21,817 bases of DNA from a virus, in IMG/VR virus record IMGVR_UViG_3300037164_000069, positions 1 through 21,817 of that record; one strand, given 5' to 3'. Below, piece after piece: positions 166 to 19,426 of this stretch (positions within the stretch are counted from its first letter, which is position 1; every line of letters begins with the position of its first letter). The notes below the pieces were generated by a model. That model was not told the DNA's origin. It made no database searches and saw only the letters and a program-made list of their open reading frames with translations. The position numbers and the translations under genes are program-made.

Positions 166-372
166 TTATGGGATGAGACTTCCCGGCCGGTGGATAGTGC
201 AGAGTGGGCAGTAATGACGGTGTTTGTCCTTGGTCCACTCGGACGCCAATGAGATCGTGTCGAGGTCGAAGGCGAGCTGCCGCACGGTCTGCGGCTCGTC
301 GTCGCGGAGCCGGTGGCGCATGAAGCTGATCTGGCAGCCGTCGCAGATGAGTTCGACGTAGAGGGCTAGCAT
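166..372 (-). CDS. Small zinc-ribbon-like protein, 68 aa
   Basis: The start chosen is the ATG at 370-372, which overlaps the stop of the upstream helix-turn-helix gene (ATGCTAG), matching the coupling seen across this operon; a longer frame to 465 would run deep into that gene. The protein has two CxxC pairs (Cys10/Cys13 and Cys55/Cys58) separated by about 40 residues with several charged residues, so one structural zinc site is plausible. No enzyme motif is visible. Small CxxC proteins are common in phage early operons and usually lack a known role. Function is unknown; zinc binding is inferred from cysteine spacing only. Confidence 0.65.
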   Translation of the reverse strand: MLALYVELICDGCQISFMRHRLRDDEPQTVRQLAFDLDTISLASEWTKDKHRHYCPLCTIHRPGSLIP

Positions 373-944
373 CGCTGGAACTTCCCTTGGTGGATCATGC
401 GGTACAGGCGCTCGATCCGCATTGCCGTGCGGGCGGTGAGCACACACGGCTTGCGGTACATCCATTGGAGCTTAGGAACCTTGTACGCCATCCACCGCGC
501 CAATTGCGCTCGGCTGTATCCGTCTCGGAGAAGCTCTTGGATGAGGGCGAGAGCGTTTTTTGAATCGACGAGTGCGCCATCGGACACTGCCGAGCGATCC
601 ACCCCCAACAGTCTTTGCTCGGCGTTCGCACGCATCCGCGGTCGCGAGCCCTTTAGGATTCCAAAGACGATGTTTGAAGAGATGCTGGACGCTGCGGCGA
701 TGGCTTTGTATCCGACTCCTTGGGCTTGGAGCTCGAGGATGTGGTTGCGCGCTTTGGTCGTCGGCACTAAGCCATTCCAACCCCCATCCTTCTTCAGACG
801 TTGCCTCTCTAGGTTGTACCTGGAGTGCGCCGCGCGGCAAAGCATGCATTTGCAGCCAGCCACGTAACGCGCGTGCGTCGCGTGTGGCCGGCGCGCCGCT
901 GCGGCTCGGAGCGAAATTAACCGTTCGGATAGTTCAGTTTTCAT
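366..944 (-). CDS. Helix-turn-helix DNA-binding protein, 192 aa
   Basis: The N-terminal third has a basic segment with an HATHARYVAGCKCMLC motif (Cys31, Cys33, Cys36), a pattern common in small phage HTH proteins, followed by a helix-turn-helix-like region at about residues 62-115 (GVGYKAIAAASSISSNIV, then a short basic stretch). A second helical HTH-like region lies at about 128-185 (SRAQLARWMAYKVP). Two DNA-binding units and a cysteine cluster suggest a transcriptional regulator of the element. The start ATG at 942-944 overlaps the stop of the 37-residue gene upstream (ATGAAAACTGA), and its own stop overlaps the next gene. Family membership is recognised by pattern; target and role are unknown. 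Confidence 0.75.
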   Translation of the reverse strand: MKTELSERLISLRAAAARRPHATHARYVAGCKCMLCRAAHSRYNLERQRLKKDGGWNGLVPTTKARNHILELQAQGVGYKAIAAASSISSNIVFGILKGSRPRMRANAEQRLLGVDRSAVSDGALVDSKNALALIQELLRDGYSRAQLARWMAYKVPKLQWMYRKPCVLTARTAMRIERLYRMIHQGKFQRC

Positions 945-1047
945 CGCTGCTCCTTGCGGCGTCTTGCACGGCTTCCGCGATGGTCTGGGCTGTCTCGCTG
1001 AAGTAGAGGATAGCTCGCGTGTAGCGGTTCAAGATTTCAATGCTCAT
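934..1047 (-). CDS. Micro-protein, 37 aa
   Basis: A short gene with strong contextual support. ATG at 1045-1047 is preceded by GGAGG six bases upstream and overlaps the stop of the HNH gene as ATGA; its TGA at 934-936 overlaps the start of the next gene. The sequence begins MSIEILNRYTRAILYFSE and continues with an amphipathic helix (TAQTIAEAVQDAA) and an acidic end. This resembles the leader found before pentapeptide repeats in some phage proteins (a short strand, then an EAVEEAV-type helix), so it may be a stand-alone or truncated version of that leader. No function is known. The gene call rests on coupling and the ribosome site. Confidence 0.65.
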   Translation of the reverse strand: MSIEILNRYTRAILYFSETAQTIAEAVQDAARSSDEN

Positions 1048-1457
1048 TTGGCCTCCATAAGTAGCGGCCGCCGGGCGTCTTTCCGGTCGGACCTGGTTTC
1101 CTTATGGTGCAGGCGGTCGTAGTTGAGGTGGCACCACTGGCAGAGAGCCATGAGGTTTTCCTCGCGGTCGTCGCCGGGGGTGTGGTTGAGGTGGGCGACC
1201 GTGAGGACGATGCTCACGGTGCGCCTCGCGGAGACCATAGGTTCGAAGGTGGTGATGTTTCCCTGAGAGTTGCGCCATGGGGTGCCGCACTCGGCCTCGG
1301 AACTGCGGTAGGAGCCCCCGTTTCCGCGGTCATAGCGATGGTGGTTCTTGACGCCGCACTGTTCGCATCTGTCGTGGGCACGAGCTAGGATGCGGCGCCG
1401 CGTTGCTTTCCAATCGGCACCGGAGTAGTGCTGGAGCAGGTCTTTGCGGATGGGCAT
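1044..1457 (-). CDS. HNH endonuclease, 137 aa
   Basis: A metal-dependent nuclease of the HNH family. A CxxC pair at Cys31/Cys34 (CEQCG) starts the zinc-bound fold, followed by an insertion, then the core: His89 (VAHLNH), Asn101 (EENLMALC) and the CxxCH ending at His110 (CQWCH). All expected catalytic and zinc positions are present. The start is the ATG at 1455-1457 overlapping the upstream stop by one base (TAATG); a longer frame reaching 1520 has no support. Phage HNH enzymes often sit beside the terminase and assist DNA packaging, but here the gene is in the early operon about 7 kb from the terminase, so a role in recombination or host-DNA cleavage is equally possible. Confidence 0.88.
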   Translation of the reverse strand: MPIRKDLLQHYSGADWKATRRRILARAHDRCEQCGVKNHHRYDRGNGGSYRSSEAECGTPWRNSQGNITTFEPMVSARRTVSIVLTVAHLNHTPGDDREENLMALCQWCHLNYDRLHHKETRSDRKDARRPLLMEAK

Positions 1458-1954
1458 TAGAACGGCCTCTCGATGCGGGTGAAGAACCCGCCGGCAATTC
1501 GGGCCGTTTCCCCGTCGCAATCCAGGAGGTCCTCGCGGCTAAACGTGACCTCCCACATTTGGGCGGTGTGATCGACGCCAGCATGAGTGTGAGCGCGGGC
1601 TGCGGAGGAGACGTGTATACCGCGCACGCACGTGTCGCTGCCGGCCGGGGGCAAATCCTGCTCGTGGTAGTCACCCTCCGGTTGGTGAAATCCGACGGTG
1701 TGTCTCCCGCAGCCGTTTGCGGTGGTGGTGCGGTAGGCAACTGCGGAGCCAGACCTGAAGACGATCCCGCACAGCGCAGCCATATAGGTGAGGCGCTCGG
1801 TGTTCTCGTCGCGCCACGTGCCGCCGTACCACGTGCCGTCGCGCCACGTGCCGCCGCGCCAGGCAACTTGCCCGTCTACCCATTCGACGTCGGCATTGCT
1901 CGTGCTGGCGTCGGCGAGCCATTGGGGACAGTTTTGCAGGTCGGAAATGTTCAT
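1457..1954 (-). CDS. W-x-G-G-T pentapeptide protein, 165 aa, function unknown
   Basis: The start ATG at 1952-1954 overlaps the upstream stop (ATGA) and follows GAGGAGG at good distance. Residues 32-49 hold tandem pentapeptides of the form W-[R/Y]-[G/D]-G-T. Such W/G/T-rich repeats occur in many phage and plasmid proteins, next to variable domains. The C-terminal half contains RGIHVSSAARAH and later MWEVTFSREDLLDCDGE, resembling small phage proteins of unknown role with a CKGIHV-type motif. No catalytic motif can be assigned. It lies between a small unknown gene and the HNH nuclease. Repeats are seen directly; any host-interaction role is speculation. Confidence 0.7.
   Translation of the reverse strand: MNISDLQNCPQWLADASTSNADVEWVDGQVAWRGGTWRDGTWYGGTWRDENTERLTYMAALCGIVFRSGSAVAYRTTTANGCGRHTVGFHQPEGDYHEQDLPPAGSDTCVRGIHVSSAARAHTHAGVDHTAQMWEVTFSREDLLDCDGETARIAGGFFTRIERPF
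1808..1861 (-). repeat. Tandem 15-bp repeat encoding WxGGT pentapeptides
   Basis: About 3.6 copies of a 15-base unit around GGCACGTGGCGCGAC, read on the minus strand, encoding residues 32-49 of the surrounding gene. Units differ by a few bases that swap R/Y and D/G at positions 2 and 3 of the pentapeptide. Confidence 0.85.
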
Positions 1955-2235
1955 AGGGCCTCCTCTGGGCAGACGGAGTAGAGGACTAGGCGGCGGATCC
2001 GCGAGGCCTCGATGAGGACATTGCACTCGGCGATCGCGGCGGCGACGGTTTCGGCGGATCCGTTGACCGAAACGCCGGCTTTGAGCGCGAAGCATATTTT
2101 GTCGCCCTTGGCTGTGCTATAGCGGACCAGGCGTACGGCGACTCCTCGGCGCTCGCCCCGCCATGAGCCAGTGCAGGCGAGTTGGTGAATGATCGTGCAG
2201 ACGTCGTGAGGCGAGAACGCTACCGAGCGGCGCAT
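1951..2235 (-). CDS. Hypothetical protein, 94 aa
   Basis: ATG at 2233-2235 is preceded by TGAGGT about seven bases upstream, inside the end of the cysteine-rich gene, giving a 16-base overlap. Its stop overlaps the next start as ATGA. The protein has a basic N-terminus, a central strand-rich part (VAVRLVRYSTAKGDKICFAL), a serine/alanine helix with ETVAAAIAECNVLIEA, and an acidic end. No known family is recognised and no transmembrane segment is evident. The context makes it a genuine early-operon gene. Confidence 0.7.
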   Translation of the reverse strand: MRRSVAFSPHDVCTIIHQLACTGSWRGERRGVAVRLVRYSTAKGDKICFALKAGVSVNGSAETVAAAIAECNVLIEASRIRRLVLYSVCPEEAL

Positions 2236-2588
2236 GCGGCTACCTCAGACAATCCCAGATCCGGACCTTGACGGGCCACGACGGGCGCATCAGGGCGCGC
2301 AGGGAGGGCTTGGTTGCAGGTTATCGCCAGGGCGATGATGTGATCGCACGCGTGCTGGGAGAGCACGCGGGCGACACAGGAATTTGTGTCGAGGCAGAGC
2401 CGGAAGCCGCGCTTGGCTACCGAGTACTGGGCGCGGGAGGAAAACGGGATGCCGCAGCAAGCGCAAACGCAGGCGGTGCAGTGGGTGTGACTTGCGTCGG
2501 ACCAGGCGCAGCCGGTTGGCGCGCAGGGCTTGGTAACGGTGCAGCCGCAGGCGCGGCAGGTTCCACGGGTCGGTGAGATACGGAACAT
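2220..2588 (-). CDS. Cysteine-rich zinc-binding protein, 122 aa, with a duplicated 3' end
   Basis: The start is the ATG at 2586-2588 with AAGGAG just upstream. Residues 9-45 carry CRACGC, PCAPTGCAW and HCTACVCACC clusters, matching a small cysteine motif (CRxCGCT...GCxW.....C.xC) widespread in phage and plasmid proteins of unknown role, likely one or two zinc sites. Residues 46-90 continue with further cysteines. The last 30 or so residues come from DNA (2245-2314) that is a near copy of the replication gene at 4448-4517, read in a different frame, so this C-terminus is probably not ancestral. The copied stretch reads through to the stop at 2220-2222. Zinc binding is inferred; the duplication is seen directly. 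Confidence 0.7.
   Translation of the reverse strand: MFRISPTRGTCRACGCTVTKPCAPTGCAWSDASHTHCTACVCACCGIPFSSRAQYSVAKRGFRLCLDTNSCVARVLSQHACDHIIALAITCNQALPARPDAPVVARQGPDLGLSEVAACAAR
2245..2314. repeat. 70-bp direct repeat, copy 1
   Basis: Matches 4448-4517 in the same orientation with 3 mismatches in 70 bases, with no gap. This copy forms the 3' end of the cysteine-rich gene. In the frame used by the replication gene this copy would run into a stop codon (TAG) just past its end. Confidence 0.95.
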
Positions 2589-2851
2589 GGGACTCCTTGG
2601 GTTGATTGATTGGGGACGTTGAGGTTGCCGCAGGCCGCCGCATGGGCGTAGGCTTGGGCGAGACGGAAGGCCTCGTAGCGGCCTTCGGAGATCGAGAGAG
2701 ACAGTTCGCGCGCCCGGTTGGCCGCAGCGGTGCGGCCGGACGCGGAGACCAAGTCTAGGGTGCCGAGGGCCATCAGAGTCAGGAAACGATCCTCGGGGGA
2801 CAGATGGGGGGCCGACGGCAGGCCGCGGCGACGGCGGTCGAAGCGGGTCAC
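2417..2851 (-). CDS. Hypothetical protein, up to 144 aa, overlapping the next gene
   Basis: The start chosen is GTG at 2849-2851, which overlaps the upstream stop as GTGA and follows GAGGAGGAG. About the first 88 residues look like real protein: a basic start, then a helical stretch (LSPEDRFLTLMALGTLDLV, RELSLSISEGRYEAFRLAQA). From about residue 88 the frame lies over the cysteine-rich gene for 172 bases and becomes Pro/Ala-rich, as a shadow frame would. Either the gene truly overlaps its neighbour, or its original stop was lost by a small indel near 2600. No family is recognised. The first part is supported by coupling; the true end is uncertain. Confidence 0.55.
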   Translation of the reverse strand: MTRFDRRRRGLPSAPHLSPEDRFLTLMALGTLDLVSASGRTAAANRARELSLSISEGRYEAFRLAQAYAHAAACGNLNVPNQSTQGVPCSVSHRPVEPAAPAAAPLPSPARQPAAPGPTQVTPTAPPAFALAAASRFPPAPSTR

Positions 2852-3126
2852 TGAGTGCGCTCCTCCTCGTCGATAAGCGCCTGGAGATCGCCGGCGAGAT
2901 TGCGACATTGGGATAGAGCCGCTTGGAGGGATCCATGGCGGTCCTCGTCGAGGATGAGGCTGCGGAGCAAGCCGCGGCAGGTCTCGGCGGCTTGCAAGGC
3001 GTCATGGTAGGCCTGCAAGGTGTTCTTCGGCATGGCGTCCGGGGGCCGCTGTACTGCTTTGTGTACAGTGCTGCCAAGGCCACTGAGACCCCGGTCACTC
3101 GCTGGGAAATCGAAGGCGGTCCTCAT
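2848..3126 (-). CDS. Hypothetical helical protein, 92 aa
   Basis: ATG at 3124-3126 overlaps the stop of the replication gene as ATGA. A second possible start lies about 30 codons further in (MPKNTLQAYHDAL). The C-terminal two thirds are strongly helical with heptad-like Leu/Ala spacing (TLQAYHDALQAAETCRGLL, then SLQAALSQCRNLAGDLQAL) and end acidic (DEEERTQ), suggesting a small helical bundle or coiled coil. No enzyme motif. Because it directly follows and is coupled to the replication gene, a helper role in replication is possible but unproven. Confidence 0.65.
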   Translation of the reverse strand: MRTAFDFPASDRGLSGLGSTVHKAVQRPPDAMPKNTLQAYHDALQAAETCRGLLRSLILDEDRHGSLQAALSQCRNLAGDLQALIDEEERTQ

Positions 3127-4601
3127 CGGGCACCTCCGGCGACCGCTATTGCATGGGGCTGCGAGGGATCCAGCGAGTCCACCAGTTCCTGCGCGTTGCG
3201 GCGTCTGATGGGAGTGCAGGCTGGGTCCGCGAGCCAGCGCTTGGCCTCCGCCAGGCATTCCGGGAAATTTTCAGGGACGTATACGGGGTCCGGCGGCGGC
3301 GACGGTTGCGGACCGAGGACTGGGACAGAGAACAGCTTGGGGACGGCGGTGAGCAGGAATCCCACCGGGCTGTCTTTGCCGCGGCAGAGGTGGCCCTTGA
3401 GCCGGATGGCCCCCAGAATTTCCACGGCCGTGCAATGCGGGGACCTGCCGCGACACTGAGCGATCATGATGCGGGCTGCGTCCTCGTCGGCAGGGCAAAA
3501 GTGGCGCATGCCGTCCAGGACGTGGGCGACATCGGCAAGAGGCTCCGCCTGTTTCCCGGCGGGTGAGACCGGTCTGCCGGCGGAGGTATACGCCGGAACA
3601 GGCGGAGCGGGGGAAAGACCGGCACCGGGCGCAGTCCCAGGCTGCACCCGGGGAGGATTGCCGATCCCATTCGCGCCGGCAGACGCCTGAGTCCCGACAG
3701 ACGCTGAGGCGGGCGCGAATAGCTTGGGCTGGAGCGGCGGCGCTGGCTGGGGCTTGCCGGGCGTCTTGGCGGCTTGGATCGCCTGCTCCAGGTATCGCTT
3801 GAGGGAGTCGGCCGCGGAGCGGAGCACCTCATGGTAGCTCAGCACGGCGGCCTTGACCTCTTCGCTCCCGGCTATCGCGCCAGCATCCGCGATCAGCTTG
3901 CGCATGCTGTGGTTGCGCATAAAGGCCAGCAGCAGTTGGATGGGACCCCCCTCTTCAACCTCAGCGTTTTCAACAAATTGCGAGCTAATGGAGCCAGATA
4001 TGGCTCCATTAGCTCGCAAGTTATTGGCTTTATTCGGCTTGGGCAGCAGGAAGACTCCAATCCTGCTCGACGGCGAGCCGAGCTTCGCAAGGTCCGCCGG
4101 TTTCAGTTTGCGGAGCGGAGTCAGCCATCCGCGCTTCTCTCCGTCTGCCAAGGAGACGTGTTGCAACTTCTCCGGGGTGCGTTCCAGCCTGGCTCGGACG
4201 ATCAATCCATCGTCCTGCTCCATTTCGACCAGCGCGCGGTGCATGTGCGCCTTCGAAACGCGGAGAGCAACTTTGATCTCGGGGGTCACCTGGATGCCCG
4301 ATTCCGCGCACGCATCGCAGGCCGCCCGGAAGATCATACCGGTGATCATGGACGGCTGGAGTGGCCCGACCCTGGTGGGTGCGCCAGCGTACTCGCCCTT
4401 GCTCATGATGACGGCCAAGTCGGACTCGTAGCCGAAGCTCTGGATCATCAGACAAGCCCAGATCCGCACCTTGAGGGGCCACGACGGGCGCATCAGGGCG
4501 CGCAGGGAGGGCTTGGTGGTGTACATCCACTCGCCGGGTTTGACGCCCAAGCGGGCAAAGAACGGAGGGACAAAGGGCTGTTTGATCGACTCGGCTGCCA
4601 T
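3123..4601 (-). CDS. Replication-initiator-like protein with winged-helix N-terminus, 492 aa
   Basis: First gene of the leftward operon, starting at ATG 4599-4601. Residues about 20-145 form a winged-helix-like region (helical stretches around WPLKVRIWACLMIQ, ALRVSKAHMHRALVEME, then strand DGLIVRARLE), as in phage O/DnaD-type initiators and plasmid Rep proteins. Residues 280-355 are a Pro/Ala/Gly-rich linker. Residues 355-425 are a second helical domain ending in GFLLTAVPKLF, a motif style seen at the C-terminus of such initiators, where it contacts helicase or primase. No helicase or primase motif is present, so it would recruit host enzymes. Codons 195-208 encode a perfect palindrome, possibly the origin. 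Function is inferred from architecture and position, not from a diagnostic motif. Confidence 0.6.
   Translation of the reverse strand: MAAESIKQPFVPPFFARLGVKPGEWMYTTKPSLRALMRPSWPLKVRIWACLMIQSFGYESDLAVIMSKGEYAGAPTRVGPLQPSMITGMIFRAACDACAESGIQVTPEIKVALRVSKAHMHRALVEMEQDDGLIVRARLERTPEKLQHVSLADGEKRGWLTPLRKLKPADLAKLGSPSSRIGVFLLPKPNKANNLRANGAISGSISSQFVENAEVEEGGPIQLLLAFMRNHSMRKLIADAGAIAGSEEVKAAVLSYHEVLRSAADSLKRYLEQAIQAAKTPGKPQPAPPLQPKLFAPASASVGTQASAGANGIGNPPRVQPGTAPGAGLSPAPPVPAYTSAGRPVSPAGKQAEPLADVAHVLDGMRHFCPADEDAARIMIAQCRGRSPHCTAVEILGAIRLKGHLCRGKDSPVGFLLTAVPKLFSVPVLGPQPSPPPDPVYVPENFPECLAEAKRWLADPACTPIRRRNAQELVDSLDPSQPHAIAVAGGAR
3978..4019. repeat. Perfect inverted repeat, 19-bp arms, 4-base loop (candidate origin hairpin)
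   Basis: Arms TTGCGAGCTAATGGAGCCA (3978-3996) and its exact complement (4001-4019) with loop GATA. It lies inside the replication gene, in a locally AT-rich patch (about 3968-4030) within otherwise GC-rich DNA. It is far more perfect than coding demands. Known phage origins often lie within the initiator gene, as lambda ori lies in O. Confidence 0.9.
4448..4517. repeat. 70-bp direct repeat, copy 2
   Basis: Encodes residues 29-52 of the replication protein (around SLRALMRPSWPLKVRIW) and matches 2245-2314 with 3 mismatches. As it fits the continuous protein here, this is probably the source copy. Confidence 0.95.
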
Positions 4602-4831: not shown

Positions 4832-5803
4832 GTGGGAACCGCGTCCAACGCAGGGATGTCGCCAACCATTGAAGCTGAAATAGAAGAGTTGCGTGAGGCG
4901 CGAGCCAGGCTGGTGGAGCGAGGCGAGTTCGCGCCGATCACGTTGCAGGGGTACGCCTACGATTGGGCCGGATTCGCGGCCTGGTGCGAGGCGAGAGGTC
5001 GCGGCAGTCTGCCGGCCTCCGCGGATACGTTGTCGTTGTACCTGACCGCTCTGTTGGGTCAGGGACTCAAAGTGACGACTGTACGGCGCCGATGCTGCGC
5101 AGTCGTGCACCGGCATCGGATGGCGGGGCTTAGTTCCCCCGCGGGCAAGGAAGTTCTCGCCCTGCTGGCCGGGGCGCAACGGGAGCGAGCCGAGAAGCCG
5201 CGCCAGATGAGGCCCTTGACGGTGGCTCAACTGCGCGAGATCTCGGAATTTCTGGGGGAGCAGGGATCGACGGCCGCTATCCGGGACCGGGCGATCCTGG
5301 TAGTCGGGTTCGCGTCCGCTCTGCGGCGATCGAGTATCGCCGGGCTCAACCTGGCGGACGTGGAGTTCTGCACCGAGGGGATGGTAATCCACGTGGGGCG
5401 CGAGAAGCAAGACCAGACCGGGCGCGGCCGGCTGATCGGTATTCCGTGGGGACGCCACGAGGCAACCTGCGCGGTGCGATGCCTGCGGGCGTGGATCGAG
5501 CGCAGGGGGGAGAGGCCCGGCCCGCTGTTCTGGCGGTTGCAGGGCAGCGCGGGGTTGCGGCTGGACGGCGAGTGCGTGGAGCGGCTCGTCAAGCGTTGCG
5601 TGGCGATCATTGGCCTCGACCCGAGGGACCGCTTCGCGGCGCATTCTCTGCGATCCGGGTTTGTCACCGCCGCCGGCGAAGGGGGCGCCGGCGAGCTGCT
5701 GATCGCGGCACAGACGGGGCATCGGTCCATGGACGTGCTGCGCCGCTACTTCCGGCGGAGCGACCTGTTCCGCGCAAACGCCTGCAACGCGATTGAGCTG
5801 TAG
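4832..5803 (+). CDS. int: Tyrosine recombinase / phage integrase, 323 aa
   Basis: A site-specific recombinase that would insert and excise the element. The N-terminal part (about 35-105) is the SAM-like core-binding domain. The catalytic domain has the expected set: Arg165 in SALRRSSIAGL, a candidate lysine at 192 (GREKQD), His271/Arg274 in HSLRSGF, His297 in TGHRSM, and nucleophile Tyr306 in VLRRYFR. Length fits XerC/D-size integrases. The start is uncertain: GTG at 4832 gives the longest form, ATG at 4856 gives a form 8 residues shorter, and neither has a clear ribosome site. The gene is alone on the plus strand, divergent from the replication operon, with its stop 8 bases from a convergent small gene. 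No excisionase is recognised nearby. Confidence 0.92.
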   Translation: MGTASNAGMSPTIEAEIEELREARARLVERGEFAPITLQGYAYDWAGFAAWCEARGRGSLPASADTLSLYLTALLGQGLKVTTVRRRCCAVVHRHRMAGLSSPAGKEVLALLAGAQRERAEKPRQMRPLTVAQLREISEFLGEQGSTAAIRDRAILVVGFASALRRSSIAGLNLADVEFCTEGMVIHVGREKQDQTGRGRLIGIPWGRHEATCAVRCLRAWIERRGERPGPLFWRLQGSAGLRLDGECVERLVKRCVAIIGLDPRDRFAAHSLRSGFVTAAGEGGAGELLIAAQTGHRSMDVLRRYFRRSDLFRANACNAIEL

Positions 5804-5811
5804 CGACATAC

Positions 5812-5997
5812 TCAGGCCGATGCGGCTGCTTCGCGACGGGCTTTCGCGGCGGCGGCGCCTCGCCGGCGGAGTTCGCCCATCTTGGCGGCGTACTGCTCCT
5901 TCGTCAGGCCCTTTTTGGCGGCGGCCACCGCCTTGCGGGCGAGAATTGCCTGAGCGGCGCGGAGGATGTCTTTCTCTTTGACGGCCTGCTTCGACAT
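5812..5997 (-). CDS. Small basic Ala/Lys/Arg-rich protein, 61 aa
   Basis: ATG at 5995-5997; a GGAG lies about 13 bases upstream, further than ideal. The protein is a likely long helix rich in Ala, Lys and Arg (KEKDILRAAQAILARKAV, then ELRRRGAAAAKARREA) with no cysteines. It could bind nucleic acid. It is convergent with the integrase with an 8-base gap. Its alternating Ala/Arg composition could also arise in a random GC-rich frame, so the call is moderate. An excisionase role is conceivable from position but no wing or HTH motif supports it. Confidence 0.5.
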   Translation of the reverse strand: MSKQAVKEKDILRAAQAILARKAVAAAKKGLTKEQYAAKMGELRRRGAAAAKARREAAASA

Positions 5998-6053
5998 GGG
6001 AACAGAATACTCCGAAATCGACCGGCTGGATAACTATTTTTTGGGGGTATTGG

Positions 6054-6078
6054 CAGGGAGCCACCGGATGGCTCCCTG
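6054..6078. repeat. Hairpin with 10-bp perfect stem
   Basis: CAGGGAGCCA (6054-6063), loop CCGGA, then its exact complement (6069-6078). Contains the GGAGCCA/TGGCTCC core also found in the palindrome at 3978-4019. It has no T-tract right after it in either direction, so it is not a classical terminator, although a T6 run lies about 15 bases to the left (6037-6042), which would follow it for leftward transcription. Confidence 0.75.
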
Positions 6079-6088
6079 AGGGGTGCTT

Positions 6089-6115
6089 GGGGTGGCTCCC
6101 TCGGGGAGCCACCCC
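6089..6115. repeat. Hairpin with 12-bp perfect stem and 3-base loop
   Basis: GGGGTGGCTCCC (6089-6100), loop TCG, exact complement (6104-6115). Shares the TGGCTCC/GGAGCCA core with the neighbouring hairpin. Together they may end leftward transcription or bind a protein. Confidence 0.75.
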
Positions 6116-7526: not shown

Positions 7527-8131
7527 CACGCGACGATCTGATCCTGGCGCATCTGCCGATGGTCGGTCGAATCGCCGGGAAACTCTCCCACATTCTCCCC
7601 AAGTCCCTGGACATTCAGGATCTAACCGCCGCTGGGTTCGTCGGTCTGATTCAAGCGGCGGACGCCTACAAGCCGGAGCGCGGGCAATTCGACCACTTCG
7701 CGTACTACCGGGTACGCGGAGCCATCATCGATGCCCACCGCAGGCGAGCGTTTCAGGAAGAATTACACGAGTCGATCGACTCGTGGACCGAGGCCACGCT
7801 GGACGCCGGCAACCACAGCGAATTCTATAAGGCGCGCTTCAAGTTGGCAGAACTTCGCGACCGGGCGCCGCTGCCGGAAGCGAAAGCGGCGGAGCGGGAG
7901 AGAGTCCGGCTGCTGTGGTCGGCGATCCGCGATCTACCCCGGGACGAGGGGTGCGTGCTGAGGCGCTACTTGGCGGGAGAGAGCGCCAACGCGATCGCGC
8001 GGCAGCTACGACGGCCGCCAGCCTGGACGCGAGGCAAGCTGGAGTCGGCGCGCCGCCAAGTGGCCGCGACTCTGACGGGCCGGCAGATGCCGGCCCGACC
8101 CCGGCAGTTCGCCGAAAAGCTGGCCGCGTGA
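7523..8131 (+). CDS. Phage-encoded sigma-70 family factor, 202 aa
   Basis: Would direct host RNA polymerase to specific promoters. The TTG start at 7523-7525 overlaps the upstream stop as TTGA and has AAGGAG at ideal distance, better than a longer frame to 7472. Region 2 is at about residues 5-75, with HLPMVGRIAGKL, IQDLTAAGFVGLIQAADAY and the aromatic/basic FAYYRVRGAIIDAHRR. Region 4 is at about 127-182, with RDLPRDEGCVLRRYLAGES and HTH ANAIARQLRRPPAWTRGKL. Region 3 is not recognisable, so it resembles compact SigF/FliA-like or SigI-like factors. It lies between the presumed small and large terminase genes, coupled to both, suggesting that it serves late expression. The sigma identity is strong; its promoters are unknown. 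Confidence 0.88.
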   Translation: MTRDDLILAHLPMVGRIAGKLSHILPKSLDIQDLTAAGFVGLIQAADAYKPERGQFDHFAYYRVRGAIIDAHRRRAFQEELHESIDSWTEATLDAGNHSEFYKARFKLAELRDRAPLPEAKAAERERVRLLWSAIRDLPRDEGCVLRRYLAGESANAIARQLRRPPAWTRGKLESARRQVAATLTGRQMPARPRQFAEKLAA

Positions 8132-9852
8132 ACGCCGAGGATATTTATCTCGGCTTCCAGAACCACGCGAGGTTTTGCGCAGAATCGCTCATCGTCGAGA
8201 CGGAGCATCGGGAGCTGGTGCCGATGATTCTGTCGCCGGGGCAAGTGCGGTTGCACGAGGCGATCGGGAAGCAACGGAACGCAGGCAAGCCGGTTCGAAT
8301 CCTGTATCTGAAGAGTCGGCGTATTCAGGCGACCACGGGAACGGCAGCGGAGTTTTACCACAACACGGCGTTCCAGGCGGGAGTTCACACCGTCGTCCTG
8401 GCGCACGACGAGACGTCGACGCTCAACATCTTCGGGATCTACGACCGCTTCCACAAAAAGTACCGGCCTTTTGCCGGGGCCATCGGGCTGCCCCCATCGC
8501 GGGCCCTGAGCGACCGGCTGTACTTCCAGTATGGAGGAGACCCGGAAAGCTCATTTATTCAGGTCCACACGGCCGGCAACGCGACCTTCGGACGGAGTTT
8601 TCGCATCACCAACGTCCATTTCTCCGAGTTTCCTTACTACGCCGACGCTGCCGGAACGCTGGCCGCGGTTATGTCGGCGCTCCCGAAACTGCCGGAGACC
8701 ACGGCAGTGATCGAGGGCACGGCCAAGAGCATCGGGGATACTTTCCACAAAATGTGGCAGGCGGCGGCCGACTCTTCCTCGGAGGCGGAGTGGCTGGGCA
8801 TCTTCATGGGGTGGTGGGAACACCCGTTAAACCGGATGCCGCTGGCAGTGCCGGCGGACAGGTTCCAGGACTCGCTCTCCGCCGAGGAACGCGAGCTGAA
8901 ACAGAAGTACAACCTGAGCCTGGAACAGTTAGCCTGGCGGCGGTGGACCCTCTACAACGACTTCAACGGCGACCTGACACGTTTCCGGCGCGAGCACCCG
9001 GCGTGTCCGGAGGAAGCCTTCAGCGCCAGTTCCAGAAACCGTTTCTCGATTCCCCACGTGTACAAATCCTACGCGAAAGCGGAAGCCCTATGCGGCGAGC
9101 TGGAGACCGCAGATATGGGGGCGGGCGAGAAGCGCATAGCCTTGCTTCCAGCCGAGCATGGGGCGTTGCGCGTATGGAGGCGCCCCGAGAAAGGCCGTAT
9201 CTACGCATTGGGCGCCGACTGCGCCCAAGGATTGGACGAAGGAGAGAACGAGGGACACAGCGATCCGGATTGGAGCGTTGGCCAGGTTTTGGACCGGGAC
9301 ACGGGAGAGCAGGTTGCCATTTTGCGGGCTAGGATGATGCCCGGCGAAACGGGGCGCTACATGGCCAGGCTGGCGCGCTGGTACAACATGGCGCAGATTT
9401 GCGGGGAGCGCAACCCGGGTGGCGGCGGGGTATCCATGCTGGAGGCGATCCTCAACGCGGATTACCCGTCGTCGCTGATCTACCACCGGCCAACGACGCC
9501 GGACAGAGACCCGCAGGTGAGAGGCGACCGCATCGGCTGGGACACCAGCGGGGTAAGCCGCCCGGTCCTTATCAGCCTGCTTGACGAGACGCTCAGGCAA
9601 CTTGCAATCACGATCCACGACGCGATCACAGCGGGCGAATTGTTGACGTTCGTCATCAAAGCCAGCGGCAAGGCGGAGCACCAGACCGGCTGCCACGACG
9701 ACACGGTTATCGCCCTGGCGCTGGCCCTGATCGTGGTTACCCGGATGCCGCGGCCGGCGGTCCGGGAGACGACGCCAGCGCCGCGGGTGACTCGCTACGG
9801 CCGCGGCGGCGAATCCGAAAGCAGGGGGGCCATCGTTCGTGTGCGGCGCTGA
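8128..9852 (+). CDS. terL: Terminase large subunit, 574 aa
   Basis: The DNA-packaging motor ATPase and headful or cos nuclease. The start is GTG at 8128-8130, overlapping the sigma stop as GTGA. The N-terminal ATPase has a Walker-A-like loop at residues 62-70 (KSRRIQATT; most relatives have KxRQxGxST, so the usual glycine is Gln67 here) and a Walker-B-like VHFSEFP at 163-169 with Glu167 but Ser166 where Asp is common. The C-terminal RNase-H-like nuclease shows Asp364 (GADCAQG), Glu427 (GERNPGG) and Asp524/Asp525 (CHDDTVIALAL). Length is normal. It is followed by two small genes and the portal, as in many phages. Confidence 0.92.
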   Translation: MNAEDIYLGFQNHARFCAESLIVETEHRELVPMILSPGQVRLHEAIGKQRNAGKPVRILYLKSRRIQATTGTAAEFYHNTAFQAGVHTVVLAHDETSTLNIFGIYDRFHKKYRPFAGAIGLPPSRALSDRLYFQYGGDPESSFIQVHTAGNATFGRSFRITNVHFSEFPYYADAAGTLAAVMSALPKLPETTAVIEGTAKSIGDTFHKMWQAAADSSSEAEWLGIFMGWWEHPLNRMPLAVPADRFQDSLSAEERELKQKYNLSLEQLAWRRWTLYNDFNGDLTRFRREHPACPEEAFSASSRNRFSIPHVYKSYAKAEALCGELETADMGAGEKRIALLPAEHGALRVWRRPEKGRIYALGADCAQGLDEGENEGHSDPDWSVGQVLDRDTGEQVAILRARMMPGETGRYMARLARWYNMAQICGERNPGGGGVSMLEAILNADYPSSLIYHRPTTPDRDPQVRGDRIGWDTSGVSRPVLISLLDETLRQLAITIHDAITAGELLTFVIKASGKAEHQTGCHDDTVIALALALIVVTRMPRPAVRETTPAPRVTRYGRGGESESRGAIVRVRR

Positions 9853-10048
9853 ACCGACCAGAGGGCGCGTTCGCGAGACGGGGTGGAGTCCGCGCCACGA
9901 CCGCGAGCGCGCGGCGTTGCACGACTTCAACAACGTGCTGAGCGAGCTGATGGCGACGCTGCTGCTGGGCGAGGACGGGCTGGTGCGGTTCCACATCGGG
10001 GAGCTGACAGCGATGTACGAGGAGGCACTAAAACATGGACGGGCTTGA
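9839..10048 (+). CDS. Hypothetical protein, 69 aa
   Basis: GTG at 9839 overlaps the terminase end by 14 bases; no clear ribosome site is seen, and the first 20 residues are arginine-rich, so the true start could be later. The second half is a convincing helical stretch (ALHDFNNVLSELMATLLLGE, then HIGELTAMYEEALKHGRA). It ends 14 bases inside the next gene. Function is unknown; small genes are common between terminase and portal. Confidence 0.5.
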   Translation: MCGAEPTRGRVRETGWSPRHDRERAALHDFNNVLSELMATLLLGEDGLVRFHIGELTAMYEEALKHGRA

Positions 10049-10268
10049 CGTGCATTGCGAGGTGAACAGGCTTATCCAGCAGGGGATACAGCAGTACGAC
10101 CGGGAGTTGCGGCGCCGCGCCAGGGGAGGCGGCCCGGGTATCGATGAGGCGACGGAGCGGCTACGCAACTTCGCCACGTATCTGCGGGAGGTCTCCAGCC
10201 GGACGAGCGAACTTGCCGGCTTCCTGAACAAGTGGTGCGACGAGGTGGAAGCGAAGGGGCCCGAATGA
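10035..10268 (+). CDS. Hypothetical helical protein, 77 aa
   Basis: ATG at 10035 follows GGAGG about nine bases upstream; the stop overlaps the portal start as ATGA. Most of the protein is predicted amphipathic helix (NRLIQQGIQQYDRELRRRA, then EATERLRNFATYLREVSS) with an acidic end. No family is recognised. Coupling to the portal gene suggests a head-assembly or packaging accessory role. Confidence 0.65.
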   Translation: MDGLDVHCEVNRLIQQGIQQYDRELRRRARGGGPGIDEATERLRNFATYLREVSSRTSELAGFLNKWCDEVEAKGPE

Positions 10269-12547
10269 CGCAGCAGGACTTCCAACTGAACTGGCCCAAG
10301 GCCGAGCTGGACCGGATCGCGACTAGGATACAGACGGATTACCGGGCGGCGCTGGCGGATCACAATCGACGCATCAAGCGCTGGCGCGAGTACTACCGGC
10401 GTTTCCGGGCGATGGTGAACCTGCCGAACGAAGGCGAGGAGACCGCCGCAAACCTGCCGGTGCCCTACGTTCGCTGGAACGTGCTGACGAAGTGGGCCAA
10501 GGAAATGGACGCGCTGTTCGGAGACGACGCGGAGATAGTAGCCGTGCCGGTGGGGGCCTCCGACTACAAGCGCGACGCCAAGGTCTCGAAGTATATGACC
10601 TGGCGCGTGTTCAACAGCATGAAACTGGTGCCGCAGTTCTGCGCCTTCGTGCTGTTCAAGTTGGTGTTCGGGCGCGTGGTGGCGTACTCGCCTTGGAAGA
10701 CGGATTCGTTCGACGTCCCGGCTCCCGAGGGGAAAGCCTTCTACAACTGCAAGAACTGCGGCCGGGACGCCCTGGGGGACGAAGGCGCGCCGCCGCAGGC
10801 CTGCGAGCACTGCCAACATCCGTTGACGGGCAAGGAGTCGCCGAAAGACGAAGGCGAAGTGGTGGAGTACGAGGGGCCGGACTTCGTTCCGTTGTGGCCG
10901 GACGACTTCATCGTGCCGGCCGAGGAAGTCTCCACGCTGCACGAGTTCTCGTTCTGCTTGCGGAAGTACCGGGCGACCCCGGACCAGTTGCTGCGCGGCG
11001 AGGAGAAAGGACGCTACCGCGGCATCAAGGAGCACTGGGAAACCATCCTGAACATGGCGCAGCACGGCATCCAGCGCGAGTACGAAGGCGACGAGGTCAA
11101 ACAGGAGAAAGACGACGCGGAGGGCATCCTGTATCAGAGGCCGCTATCCAGCGGGGAGTCTCTGCTGGTGCTCGAATGGTACGGCCGTTGGAGGCCGTTG
11201 AAGAGCGGGGTGAAGGACGCCGCGGAGTGGGACTTCAAGAAGCGCGAGATGCGGCAACGGGAGTTCGTGGTGCGCTACCTGTGGGACCTGCGCCTGGTCA
11301 TCGGGGTGCAGGACCTGGCGCAGTTGTACCCGACGAAGCGGAACCGGCGTCCGTTCACCGAGGCGTCGATGTTCAAGGACGGCACTTACTGGTCGCCGGG
11401 GATGGCCGAGCTACTCATCGACATCGAGGACGAGCTGTGCGCCAATCACAACCAAGCCACCGAGGCGGGGCAACTGGCCATCAACCCGCCGATTGCTTAC
11501 CGGCCCGGGAGCGGTATGAACCCGGAGACGTTCAAGATCGAGCCGGGCCTGGCGATTCCGCTCGACAACCCGGCTACCGACGTAATCCAGCTCAAAATCG
11601 GCGCGAACATGGACATCGCCCAGTGGAAGGAACAGTGCGTCCTGGCGTACGGCGAGAAGCTGACCGGGATGTCCGACCTGCAGATGGGGCGCCAGAGCGA
11701 CCGGCCCAACGCGCCGCGAACCGCCAAGCAGACGGTCGCCCTGCTGGAAGAGGGTAACGTCCGTATTTCGCTGGACAACAAGGTCCTGCGCGAGGATATG
11801 TCGGGCGTTCTGTCGCATTTCTGGGATCTCGAGTACATCTTCAGCAGCCCGCAGACCTTCTTTCGCGTCACGGAAGACGACGCCGACGGGATATTCGAGA
11901 CCAACAACGGGGGGTCGATCCTGACGCTCGAGGACCGCGACGGCCGCTACGACTTCCGGCTACAGTTCGCCTCCAGCGTGCATTCGCGGGAGGCGAAAAA
12001 GGAACAGGCCTTGGCGCGGTACCAGTTGGACCTGCAGAATCCGCTGGTGGTGCAGAACCCGCAGGCGCTGTGGGAGGCGACGCGGGCGGCGCACGAGGCG
12101 CTGGACGATCCGGACTTCGCCAAGGCGGTGCCTAAGCCGCCGGCGCCGGACGTTTCGATCGATCCCAAGGACGAATGGGTGGAGCTGCTGCACGGCGAAG
12201 ACGTCCACGTCAATCCGGCGGATAACGATCAGGCGCACCTGGTACGGCACATGAAGGACCTGCAGATGTCCGAGCAGAACCCGAACGGGCCGACCGGAGA
12301 CCTGGACGCGGTAAAGAAGCTGATCGCGCACTACCACGACCATATCCAGCAGTTGCAGATGAAGAAGCTGCAACAAGCGATCGTCGAGCAGGCCGCGCAG
12401 GCCGTACAACAACTTGCGGGCAAAGCGAAGCCGTTGCGGATGCCCCAGGGGCTGTTCGGAGGACCCGTTACCGAGCCCGCCGGTAATCCGGCGGCGGAGG
12501 GCCCCAACATCTACAGCGGGCATCCGGAGGTGATGCATGAGCAGTAA
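10265..12547 (+). CDS. Portal protein with a zinc-ribbon-like insertion, 760 aa
   Basis: Forms the ring at the capsid vertex through which DNA enters and leaves. The start ATG at 10265-10267 overlaps the preceding stop (ATGA). Length is close to P22-type portals. Early segments AANLPVPYVRWNVLTKWAKE and the LFGDDAEI region, the central MAELLIDIEDELCANHNQA, PRTAKQTVALLEEGN, and the long C-terminal helices (IAHYHDHIQQLQMKKLQQAI) match large portal proteins. Residues 162-183 hold two CxxC pairs (CKNCG and CEHCQ, CX2C-X14-CX2C), a rubredoxin/zinc-ribbon-like knuckle inserted in the wing region, unusual for portals. It is flanked by terminase upstream and scaffold and capsid genes downstream. Confidence 0.88.
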   Translation: MTQQDFQLNWPKAELDRIATRIQTDYRAALADHNRRIKRWREYYRRFRAMVNLPNEGEETAANLPVPYVRWNVLTKWAKEMDALFGDDAEIVAVPVGASDYKRDAKVSKYMTWRVFNSMKLVPQFCAFVLFKLVFGRVVAYSPWKTDSFDVPAPEGKAFYNCKNCGRDALGDEGAPPQACEHCQHPLTGKESPKDEGEVVEYEGPDFVPLWPDDFIVPAEEVSTLHEFSFCLRKYRATPDQLLRGEEKGRYRGIKEHWETILNMAQHGIQREYEGDEVKQEKDDAEGILYQRPLSSGESLLVLEWYGRWRPLKSGVKDAAEWDFKKREMRQREFVVRYLWDLRLVIGVQDLAQLYPTKRNRRPFTEASMFKDGTYWSPGMAELLIDIEDELCANHNQATEAGQLAINPPIAYRPGSGMNPETFKIEPGLAIPLDNPATDVIQLKIGANMDIAQWKEQCVLAYGEKLTGMSDLQMGRQSDRPNAPRTAKQTVALLEEGNVRISLDNKVLREDMSGVLSHFWDLEYIFSSPQTFFRVTEDDADGIFETNNGGSILTLEDRDGRYDFRLQFASSVHSREAKKEQALARYQLDLQNPLVVQNPQALWEATRAAHEALDDPDFAKAVPKPPAPDVSIDPKDEWVELLHGEDVHVNPADNDQAHLVRHMKDLQMSEQNPNGPTGDLDAVKKLIAHYHDHIQQLQMKKLQQAIVEQAAQAVQQLAGKAKPLRMPQGLFGGPVTEPAGNPAAEGPNIYSGHPEVMHEQ

Positions 12548-12764
12548 TCGGCCACGTCCTTGCCGGGCGGCGTTGGCCCGCAGGCGAGCGCAGGTGGCTC
12601 GCCAGGTGCAGACGCTGCGCGCCCGGACCTACGAGCCGGCAAATGAGTACGAGTACGACCACGCGCGCGCCTGGCTGTACTGTCTGGACTGGGTGCTGGG
12701 GGGCAGCCAGGGCGACGAAGAAGGCTTCGACGCCTGGGTGGCGAGGCTAGCCAATGAAACCTAA
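12537..12764 (+). CDS. Hypothetical protein, 75 aa
   Basis: ATG at 12537 lies inside the portal end, preceded by GGAGG at six to seven bases. An arginine-rich start (RAALARRRAQVARQVQTLRA) is followed by an acidic aromatic region (EYEYDHARAWLYCLDWVLG) and an acidic end. The first part suits nucleic-acid or assembly contacts. No family is recognised. Overlaps at both ends support it as a genuine gene. Confidence 0.65.
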   Translation: MSSNRPRPCRAALARRRAQVARQVQTLRARTYEPANEYEYDHARAWLYCLDWVLGGSQGDEEGFDAWVARLANET

Positions 12765-13005
12765 CGCCATCGTCTCGCGGCGGCTGGACGCCATCGACCG
12801 GGAGCAGTTTCTGAAGATGCTGGACTCCGAGTCCTGGCACCTGTTCGTCGACCGGTTGCGCCAGGAGCTGGAGAGGCACAGGACGATTTGCGAGACCTCC
12901 GGCGACGCGCACGAAGTGACGCGGGCGCAAGGAGCGGCTAAGGCGCTGCGGACGACGCTGGCGCTGCCGGAGATACTGCTTGCGGCGATGCGGGGGAAGG
13001 CGTGA
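12754..13005 (+). CDS. Hypothetical helical protein, 83 aa
   Basis: ATG at 12754 overlaps the preceding stop by 11 bases. The sequence is mostly helical: REQFLKMLDSESWHLFVDRL, RQELERHRTICET, then TRAQGAAKALRTTLALPEIL. Small helical proteins with an S-x-x-W-x-x-F/L core appear beside many phage portal genes without a known role. No motif gives a function. Confidence 0.65.
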   Translation: MKPNAIVSRRLDAIDREQFLKMLDSESWHLFVDRLRQELERHRTICETSGDAHEVTRAQGAAKALRTTLALPEILLAAMRGKA

Positions 13006-13039
13006 ACGTTGGCGCCGATAATGGCGAATTCCCCAACAT

Positions 13040-13270
13040 ATGCAACCAAAGTTCATCGAGGTGGGCGGCGTCATCCTCAACCTCGCAGCCATCGAGGCAG
13101 TGAGGTTCGGCGGAAGCGCTCCGCCGGAAGCCTGCGCGGAGGCTCATGCGCAGGTGCATTTCGCCAGTGGAGCGGTGTTCGACTTCGCCGGACCCGAGGC
13201 GCTGGCGCTAAAGCGCTTTTTCTCGCCCGCGGGCCCGGTCTTGCAGGAGAATCCACCGCGGCCGGAGTAG
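13040..13270 (+). CDS. Hypothetical beta-rich protein, 76 aa
   Basis: ATG at 13040; no strong ribosome site. The sequence is built of short strands (FIEVGGVILNLAAIEAVRFG, AQVHFASGAVFDFAGPEA), a small barrel-like pattern seen in phage and bacterial proteins where a short domain describes a default value (VILNLAAIEAV). A larger overlapping frame on the same strand has arginine-rich, low-quality sequence and is a shadow. Function is unknown. Confidence 0.6.
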   Translation: MQPKFIEVGGVILNLAAIEAVRFGGSAPPEACAEAHAQVHFASGAVFDFAGPEALALKRFFSPAGPVLQENPPRPE

Positions 13271-13276
13271 CCTGTC

Positions 13277-13666
13277 GTGCAACAGATTCGGGGCAGAACG
13301 TACGCCGACAGGCTGGCCTCGTACCGGGCGGGCGAGGCGGCCAAGAAAAAACACGTACAGGCTCGCGAGGAGGCCAGGAAGCAACGCGCGCTTATGGCCC
13401 GTGCGGCGGCCGAACGTTCCCCCGACGGTACCGCGGCGCGCGTGTCGCGCAGAGAGCGCCGATCGGGCGAACAGCGGAGGCGGGAAGAGCTGGATGCGTA
13501 CCTGCTCGACCGAAGATCGGACCGCGAATGGGAGCGCAAATTCCGGCGGCTGCGCGCGGACGAACCCGAGCCGCGCAGCCCTGTGGGAAGTAGCTGGCCG
13601 GCGTTCGAGGCGGCCATCCGAAAGTGGGGGCCGCCCAATACGGTACGGAAAATCTGGAGCTACTGA
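13277..13666 (+). CDS. Basic coiled-coil-like protein, 129 aa
   Basis: GTG at 13277, 6 bases after the previous stop, with a weak GGAGT upstream. Very rich in Arg, Lys, Glu and Ala, forming long helices (LASYRAGEAAKKKHVQAREE, then SGEQRRREELDAYLLDRRSD) and ending in the less charged SSWPAFEAAIRKWGPPNTV. It may bind DNA or assemble with other head proteins. No known family; a capsid or scaffold accessory is possible from position. Confidence 0.6.
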   Translation: MQQIRGRTYADRLASYRAGEAAKKKHVQAREEARKQRALMARAAAERSPDGTAARVSRRERRSGEQRRREELDAYLLDRRSDREWERKFRRLRADEPEPRSPVGSSWPAFEAAIRKWGPPNTVRKIWSY

Positions 13667-13684
13667 GGCGGGGGAGGTTAGGCG

Positions 13685-13891
13685 ATGTTTTACATTCGAT
13701 ACCTGGCCAGGTGCTGTGCGTGCGAGGCGGAACGGGTCCAAATGGACCTTAAGCTCAACGACGAATGCAGCCGCTTCTATACGCCCTCTCTGCCACTCGG
13801 CTGGACGCAGGATCATTGCGGCCGGCTCTACTGCCAGGACCATGTGGTAGTCCTGACGTGCACGGTAGACGGCAGGCCGGTGGTGCGATGA
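13685..13891 (+). CDS. Small Cys/His-containing protein, 68 aa
   Basis: ATG at 13685 follows GGGGGAGG at a good distance. Contains Cys10, Cys11 and Cys13 (ARCCACE), Cys28, a DHC-x-x-x-x-C-x-D-H stretch (DHCGRLYCQDH) and Cys59, enough ligands for one zinc site. Its stop overlaps the next gene's start as ATGA. The neighbouring gene is also a cysteine protein, so the two may act together. Function is unknown. Confidence 0.65.
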   Translation: MFYIRYLARCCACEAERVQMDLKLNDECSRFYTPSLPLGWTQDHCGRLYCQDHVVVLTCTVDGRPVVR

Positions 13892-14241
13892 CTGCGGCGC
13901 CCCGGGTTGTCAGCGTGCGGTGCTCGTGGTGCTCAAAGCAGCGGCCCGAGTTCCGCGTACACCGGCTTACCTCAGGCCAGGCGCTCTGCGATTACTGCCT
14001 GGAGTGGCATTTGGCCGCTCTCGAGGTGCTGAGCGGCGGGGTCCCGGCGGGATGCCAGCAATGCGGCGCGGATTGGGCCCGGCTGCGCGCAGCGGCGCCA
14101 GGTGTCGAGGTCAGAATGTATGTGGTGCCCAAGGATGGCATCTATCAACTGCTTTGCGCGTGCTGCGTGCGGCCCTACGTCGGGAAGCGCGCGGACTTGT
14201 ACGCAGGCACTAGATTCGGAAAGGAAACTCTCAAACTATGA
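13888..14241 (+). CDS. Double zinc-ribbon-like protein, 117 aa
   Basis: The start is ATG at 13888, overlapping the previous stop; a longer frame to 13765 is not needed. Four CxxC pairs are visible: CSWC and CDYC in the first 35 residues, then CQQC and CACC in the second half, compatible with two zinc ribbons. Between them is a strand pair (VEVRMYVVPKDGIYQLLC). The stop overlaps the scaffold start (ATGA). Zinc-ribbon proteins inside head operons are uncommon; the role is unknown. Confidence 0.7.
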   Translation: MTAAPRVVSVRCSWCSKQRPEFRVHRLTSGQALCDYCLEWHLAALEVLSGGVPAGCQQCGADWARLRAAAPGVEVRMYVVPKDGIYQLLCACCVRPYVGKRADLYAGTRFGKETLKL

Positions 14242-15062
14242 ATGACCCAGTCTCTCCGGTCGAAACGACCGTCAGCGGCGATCACGCCCCCGCGGCGGCG
14301 GTGGGAACTCAACCGGGGGCGCCGGCCGCCGAAGGGCAGGACCTTACAGCACTGCGCGCGCAGCTCGACACGCTGAAAGCGCAGATCGCAGAGCAACAGC
14401 GCACAACCGAGTACTGGTACCGCGAGGCCAAGAACCGCGGCGAGCAGCCGGCCGCGGCGACCGCGCAAGTTCCCCAGGCGGGCGACGACGTGGACTTGCT
14501 GGAAGTGGTGACGACACAGGGAGCCAAGGGGCTGGACAAGGTCATCAGCGACCGCGGTTACGTGCGCAAGACGGACGTGGAAGCCATGATCGAGACGCGC
14601 GCCGCGCAGATGACGAAGGAAGTGGAGCTAGTGGGGCGCTTCCCGGACCTCAAGAACCAGCAGTCGGATTTCTTCAAGGAGACGGCGCGGGCGTACGGAG
14701 AGTTCAAGAACCAGGGCGTGCCGCAGCATCTGGCGATGGAGATGGCGGCCGAGCGCGTCGCCTTAGTTTTTATGGAGGCGGGCAAGCTGAAGACGCGATC
14801 GCAGGCATCGGAAGAAACCGCGGCGACGCGCGAGGCCACGCGCAGGGCGCGGGCCGCGGCGCAGGAGGGCGACAGAGGGAACCGTGCACCGGGCGCGGGC
14901 GAGGCCGACGACGGAGAACTCTCCCCCGAACAGCAAAAGATAGCGCTCAGTATGCTGCTAGGGATGCCAGGCGCCGACGGCAAGCCGATGAACCGGGAGC
15001 AGGCCCTAGAGGCCTACAGGACACGCGCCAGGAAGGGCGTGGCGATGAGGGGAGTGAGGTAA
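14238..15062 (+). CDS. Scaffolding-like protein, 274 aa
   Basis: Sits between portal and capsid, where scaffolds normally lie, and is coupled to the preceding gene (ATGA). The start is Pro/Ala-rich and disordered, then a coiled coil at about 38-65 (LTALRAQLDTLKAQIAEQQR and TEYWYREAKNR), a middle helical region (RGYVRKTDVEAMIETRAAQM), and an Arg/Ala/Glu-rich tail ending in a basic patch (RTRARKGVAMRGVR). Scaffolds typically use coiled coils plus a basic C-terminal helix to bind the coat protein, so the layout fits. No protease motif is seen. Confidence rests on position and composition. Confidence 0.6.
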   Translation: MNDPVSPVETTVSGDHAPAAAVGTQPGAPAAEGQDLTALRAQLDTLKAQIAEQQRTTEYWYREAKNRGEQPAAATAQVPQAGDDVDLLEVVTTQGAKGLDKVISDRGYVRKTDVEAMIETRAAQMTKEVELVGRFPDLKNQQSDFFKETARAYGEFKNQGVPQHLAMEMAAERVALVFMEAGKLKTRSQASEETAATREATRRARAAAQEGDRGNRAPGAGEADDGELSPEQQKIALSMLLGMPGADGKPMNREQALEAYRTRARKGVAMRGVR

Positions 15063-15066
15063 GGCG

Positions 15067-16002
15067 ATGCCTAACAAGCGAACGGCCCCGGCGGTGGACC
15101 CGGCCGATGCAATGAATCGGCAGGTGCTGGCCGAGAGGCAGAAGCGAGTCGACGCCAAACGCAAGCAAGAGGAGCGGACGGCGGCGGCGGTAGATCAGAT
15201 GGCCGCGGACCTGGCCCCGCACAGCGCACCGGCGAGCGCGGCCGAGCTGCTCACGGACGAGTGGGACCGCGGAGTCTTCGGCGAGGCGTTGCCCACGATC
15301 ACCCGGAAGGTGTACGGCCCGGACCCGCTTTTGGAAGGGTGTCCGGAATTTCGAGACCGGCTGGAGCAGAACGGCCTGGCGGAGTATGCGAACGCCACCG
15401 CGGAAGCAATCCGGAGCAAGGGATCGAGCGCCGTTCCCGACCCGGTAATGCGCAAGGGGCTGAAGAAAGCAATCGACCGTTTTGGGGTAGAAGCCGTGGC
15501 GCAGGCGTTCCGCGACCGGGTCATGAAGATCCCGGTACGCGAGTACGAAGTGGAAGTGGAGCGCGAGGACACGGTTCAACTCGCCGATCCGATGCGGGAC
15601 GCGGTGGAGCGCTACGGGCGCCCGGGGATGAGGGCGAAGTTCCTCTCCGAGCGGTGCATGGGGGCGCTGGGGATGCGCGGCTACGAGATCGCGAAGAACG
15701 AACGCGGGGATCCGGTGAAGGTTGGAACGCTGATTATGGGCGAGATCCCGGAGCGTTGGGCGCAAGAGCGGCTCGCCAGGTACGCGGGCGAGAGCGAAGC
15801 GGCGCTGCGCGAAATGGAAGACGGCTACATGGACGCGCAGGACCGGCTGCTGCGCGCCGCCGGCGCCGCGGGCGTGCCCGTAGCGGGATCCCGGCCGCTG
15901 GCTCCGGACGAGTCGATGCTGGCCACTGCGACCGAGAGCGAGAACTACCTCGGGCAGGCAAGGGCGGGCGGCCTGCGATTCGAGCGCGAGAACGGAGCGT
16001 AA
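15067..16002 (+). CDS. Phage protein of unknown function, 311 aa
   Basis: ATG at 15067 follows GAGGTAAGG. The N-terminus is charged and helical (VLAERQKRVDAKRKQEERT); the centre has KKAIDRFGVEAVAQAFRDRV and a strand-like EYEVEVERED. The C-terminal part includes REMEDGYMDAQDRLLRAA and a Ser/Glu-rich end. It lies between the scaffold and decoration genes, so it is probably a head protein or assembly factor. No catalytic motif is visible and no family is recognised. Confidence 0.6.
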   Translation: MPNKRTAPAVDPADAMNRQVLAERQKRVDAKRKQEERTAAAVDQMAADLAPHSAPASAAELLTDEWDRGVFGEALPTITRKVYGPDPLLEGCPEFRDRLEQNGLAEYANATAEAIRSKGSSAVPDPVMRKGLKKAIDRFGVEAVAQAFRDRVMKIPVREYEVEVEREDTVQLADPMRDAVERYGRPGMRAKFLSERCMGALGMRGYEIAKNERGDPVKVGTLIMGEIPERWAQERLARYAGESEAALREMEDGYMDAQDRLLRAAGAAGVPVAGSRPLAPDESMLATATESENYLGQARAGGLRFERENGA

Positions 16003-16067
16003 GTTCGCTCGAAATGTCGAATGCAATGTTAGCGGGCGCAGATCCGCGCTGATGGAGGGGTGAGCGA

Positions 16068-16640: not shown

Positions 16641-16736
16641 TAGTCGGGGTTTCGGCGGCAACCGGACGGGCGGCCGTCGGAAGGGTAGGCGGCGGGCAAA
16701 GTACCCGCCCCACCCTAAGAATTCGGGGGGGCGACA

Positions 16737-17657: not shown

Positions 17658-17666
17658 GGGGTTCGC

Positions 17667-18335: not shown

Positions 18336-18339
18336 GACC

Positions 18340-18729: not shown

Positions 18730-18742
18730 AGGAGAATTTGCG

Positions 18743-19393: not shown

Positions 19394-19426
19394 GACCGCG
19401 GGACTCCGCCGAGAGCGAGGTTCTAC

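Follow-up and report, generated by a model that had tools for sequence, protein, structure and literature searches.

The cysteine-rich early gene of a soil phage most probably owes its present length to a single non-homologous copying event, in which 70 bases of a large early gene would have been placed near its 3′ end and its stop codon displaced. The phage is represented by a single complete IMG/VR virus record, linear and 21,817 bases long, which constitutes the window, i.e., the whole stretch of DNA that was analysed. Relatives of its terminase-to-capsid region are numerous in IMG/VR; the terminase also has relatives in assemblies of genomes labelled Bryobacterales or other Acidobacteria, and in one labelled Streptosporangiaceae. 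Two IMG/VR contigs, L003 and L018, which come from two other datasets (IMG 3300036912 and 3300014496), are 99.98–100% identical to the window phage, but only over 7735–19849; the L018 contig shows an apparent extension of ~1.3 kb past the right end of the window. The left arm (366–4601) is a series of minus-strand early genes and harbors the features listed in Table 1. Within the window, 15-base tandem units in a 165-aa gene (1807–1861) encode repeated GGTW/DGTW motifs.

Table 1. Coordinates of the repeat pair and of the genes that carry or adjoin it (window numbering).
Feature	Position	Strand	Description
Copied segment	2245–2314	minus	70 bp, now codons 92–115 of 122 in the cysteine-rich gene
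Donor segment	4448–4517	minus	Codons 29–52 of the 492-codon large early gene; R38, P39, L43, and V45 lie inside
Cysteine-rich gene	2220–2588	minus	122 codons; ATG at 2588 after AAGGAG; TAG at 2220–2222, 16-base overlap with the next gene
Inferred former TAG stop of the cysteine-rich gene	2240–2242	minus	In frame without the 70 bases: ATA ACC TGC AGG TAG
Next operon gene	1951–2235	minus	94 aa; homologue in L060/L061
Donor gene	3123–4601	minus	492 aa; probable replication initiator (inferred); no named family

The two segments form a direct repeat of 70 nt with a start-to-start spacing of 2203, in which 67 of the 70 positions are identical (96%). The mismatches lie at 2253/4456, 2264/4467, and 2272/4475, leaving 42 bases as the longest stretch without a mismatch. 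A query of 90 bases around the copy finds two copies only in the whole record (E = 1.9e-28 for the second place), which answers, for this record, a check for further occurrences that the sequence-only reading had proposed. That reading had described a 70-bp same-orientation match with three mismatches, and the repeat search returned exactly this pair. Its placement of the donor stretch at residues 29–52 was likewise confirmed, as was its statement that the copy is read in another frame as the late part of the cysteine-rich protein. The reading frames of the two copies differ because the spacing is 1 mod 3. Together with the 67/70 identity, the different frames agree with the earlier view of a DNA-level copy rather than protein conservation.

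Of the other viral contigs searched, none contains an exact match to a 25-base piece of the repeat, and the repeat was not found in any related phage examined. An 18/20 match to it in L012 looks like chance. To give a base rate, a survey of 95 loci (1.29 Mb with the window counted in) yielded 23 dispersed repeats with a length of 45 bases or more and an identity of 85% or more; those inspected, sorted by eye, mostly resemble domains shared by paralogues, repeats inside one gene, or palindromic elements. L048 carries five dispersed, imperfect palindromes of 47–55 bases and of the type GATTGGC...GCCAATC (731–785, 1246–1292, 1742–1788, 2167–2219, and 3622–3676), which overlap different open frames and have the appearance of a small palindromic repeat element. 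In L075, an 88-base repeat (4851–4938 and 5956–6043, 95% identical) encodes MKRAAKKKPAAKKKPAAKRTTT and occupies the start of one gene and the inside of another open frame. In the window, the near-identical copy is above chance and both a recognisable donor and a recognisable recipient are present, as in a templated out-of-frame partial gene duplication.

The direction of copying can be assigned with good confidence from composition and conservation, which point to the large gene as source and the small gene as recipient. An alignment of the donor family, comprising the window protein and five relatives at 23–33% identity to it, contains 16 invariant residues, four of which (R38, P39, L43, and V45) fall within the copied 24-residue block. 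Translated in the donor frame, the small-gene copy reads TKPSLRALMRPSWPVKVRIWDCL, with the changes L43V and A49D. The small-gene copy is thus the one that drifted, since invariant L43 is broken and A49 is changed. The GC content of the copy by donor-frame position 1/2/3 is 0.54/0.57/0.91, so its peak falls at position 1 of the cysteine frame, while in the remainder of that gene GC is highest at the gene's own third position (0.81). The copy thereby keeps the codon periodicity of the large gene and not that of its host gene; recognition of an ancestral frame by composition is the approach of PMC3744397. The opposite course, in which the segment originated in the cysteine gene and was then copied into the large gene, found no support and is very improbable, given that the segment carries a quarter of the large protein's invariant residues across distant phages and that its codon periodicity matches the large gene's frame.

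When the 70 bases are removed in silico, the frame of the cysteine gene reads ALAITCR and then meets the TAG at 2240–2242, one codon past the junction. When 70 bases are deleted at random from these genes, 7.2% of the deletions bring a stop to within three codons of the junction, a control that makes the junction stop supportive rather than conclusive, as it could arise by chance about 7% of the time. The TAG lies four bases ahead of the ATG of the next gene (2235), and the operon's next two junctions are overlaps of 1–4 bases. The start at 2235 is probably genuine because the L060/L061 homologue starts at nearly the same place (in L061, no more than one codon from the corresponding position). 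In the present frame, 24 codons containing copied bases are followed by seven more before the end at 2220–2222 within the next gene. From these frames, the small protein was probably 92 residues long and has become a 122-residue protein with a 30-residue tail. The claim that a small gene gained a new C-terminus by overprinting copied DNA accords with the restored stop and with the reading of the tail in another frame.

In relatives, the small proteins that share the N-terminal pattern C..CGC...C...C.W...C..C are mostly 63–96 residues long, with one of 144. The sequence-only reading held that finding the segment at the end of cysteine genes in distant relatives without the replication-gene copy would refute its view; none of the relatives' small cysteine proteins found carries the copied tail. 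Searches for relatives of the cysteine gene returned no close relative having it without the insert, and the ancestral gene is therefore reconstructed, not observed. Single-protein queries of IMG/VR with the cysteine protein, the product of the next gene, and the donor protein gave no relatives, and phage GenBank records contain neither the cysteine protein nor the donor protein. Across 399 genomes of a single class, the cysteine protein has weak and short matches, most of them in interrupted frames.

We infer a clean insertion, with 2240–2242 as the old stop, and propose the following course. Seventy bases of the large early gene (4448–4517) would have been copied into the cysteine gene close to its 3′ end, with a single codon left ahead of the stop. 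The old stop would have been thrown out of frame, because 70 is 1 mod 3; translation would read the copied bases in a different frame and terminate at a TAG that lies within the beginning of the next gene, so that a protein of about 92 residues became one of 122. If some of the target had been replaced, instead of a pure insertion, a similar picture would be expected. Homology at the junctions is limited to one base at most, and duplicated target bases are not seen. A switch of templates during replication and a short free fragment joined in by illegitimate recombination fit equally well, as so little junction homology does not distinguish the two. As in short-range template switching (PMC7954356) and the double illegitimate recombination of Acinetobacter baylyi (cited in PMC8116780 as its reference 41), a non-homologous site has received a short piece of DNA from another part of the genome, whereas junction microhomology here amounts to one base at most.

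Extension of genes by overprinting, in which a new frame is used on existing coding DNA, has been reviewed (PMC8227390 and PMC3744397). The present case is alike in that coding DNA is read in an unselected frame and the ancestral frame is visible from composition. It is unlike these cases in that the DNA is a moved 70-base copy, not the original gene, and merely adds a tail to an existing protein.

A chimeric join in the metagenome contig is a rival explanation. The record is a single linear one, and the span shared with the near-identical L003 and L018 excludes the repeat. However, three positions separate the copies, and the sequence on either side of each is coherent and belongs to its own gene; a misjoin via a k-mer common to both would produce a single identical junction and not two flanked, diverged copies. 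An assembly artefact is accordingly unlikely. A diversity-generating retroelement, with a template repeat in one gene and a variable repeat at the 3′ end of another, shares with the window pair the direct orientation, a similar size, and the position of one copy at a gene's 3′ end. Yet the record, itself a fragment, has no reverse transcriptase in a search that was positive on control genomes, and the donor-to-copy changes on the coding strand are C>G, G>C, and C>A, with none at an adenine. This explanation is exceedingly improbable and was rejected on both counts, as diversity-generating retroelements are marked by a reverse transcriptase and adenine-specific changes. A single copying event with a displaced stop remains the best explanation of the longer gene.

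There is no sign that the copy, which most likely arose as an ordinary copying accident, has a function of its own. In the cysteine frame, the three differences change P to R and A to P and leave one codon silent; in the donor frame, there are two amino-acid changes and one silent change. The count of substitutions in each frame that the sequence-only reading had suggested thus gives no sign of selection in either frame, although three changes afford little power. The new tail would be near-neutral. Selection on the copy, through a new property that the tail gives to the protein or that the junction DNA gives to the operon by setting translation of the next gene, is improbable; if true, a copied fragment read in a new frame would have brought about a recent gain of function.

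Retention of the second copy as a DNA site, whether bound by the initiator, used in recombination, or setting translation of the next gene, is also unlikely. The junction now reads TGAGG-7 nt-ATG, with GAGG seven bases before the next gene's start, slightly better than the earlier CAGG, and the donor copy is predicted to form a hairpin as DNA (z = −2.6). In the cysteine copy, however, this hairpin is lost (z = +0.5), the repeat occurs in no relative, and the likely binding sites are other sequences, namely the candidate GGAGCCA dyads at 3990 and 6057. Anatomy rules out antisense pairing at the repeat: both genes share one strand, and their transcripts cannot pair there because they hold the same sense sequence. 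The suggestion that the repeat is kept as a recombination, binding, or antisense site is therefore not upheld, with no relative carrying it, the hairpin lost, and the transcripts coming from the same strand.

The donor gene has distant relatives in L037, L057, L058, L096, and L120, the last from an assembly labelled Terriglobia. Its protein has no match in Pfam, PHROGs, or the PDB, no significant Foldseek match, and no match in 84,980 prokaryote genomes; the six-sequence alignment is too divergent to serve as a search query. The structure model is of low confidence and uninformative. The copied segment had been assigned to a winged-helix region, for which the model offers no demonstration, as it has very low confidence there and its helix–strand region starts near residue 85. 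The label of a replication gene gains nothing from the family and structure databases; an initiator role is suggested by an internal palindrome.

This palindrome (3971–4026) has 26-base arms that are 92% complementary and a 4-base loop, and it scores 20, while 60 codon shuffles reach 10 at most. A palindrome, each time of a different sequence, is found at the corresponding place in L037 (14-base arms) and L121 (16-base arms) and weakly in L058 and L120, with further related palindromes downstream in L121; L057 and L096 have none there. The place, shortly after a P-A-K-like motif containing the invariant P189 and A192, thus appears occupied in five of seven homologues, a count made by eye on the alignment. 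In the codon-shuffle control, only the window and L121 are clearly above, and L037 equals its shuffle maximum. More distant proteins in L099 and L101 have internal palindromes too. The core dyad GGAGCCA-N-TGGCTCC recurs at 6057–6075 (0.00 expected), followed by an inverted version at 6093–6111, and these dyads sit between genes. The three sites (3971–4026, 6057–6075, and 6093–6111) are possible candidates for the origin and for initiator binding. By analogy, the donor gene could encode an initiator with the origin inside it, and the best reason for this is its likeness to lambda O, as the lambda origin lies within gene O (PMC6022878). The donor gene may resemble lambda O in its internal palindromes; it has no sequence or significant fold match to known initiators.

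The 70-base copy is a clear example of how a short copied fragment can extend a gene by shifting its stop, with a direction that is readable from codon periodicity and protein conservation; it leaves existing knowledge of phages unchanged. The palindrome observation on the donor gene may be worth more than the copy itself. Palindromes inside this gene would offer a handle on the start of replication in little-studied phages with relatives in Acidobacteria genomes.
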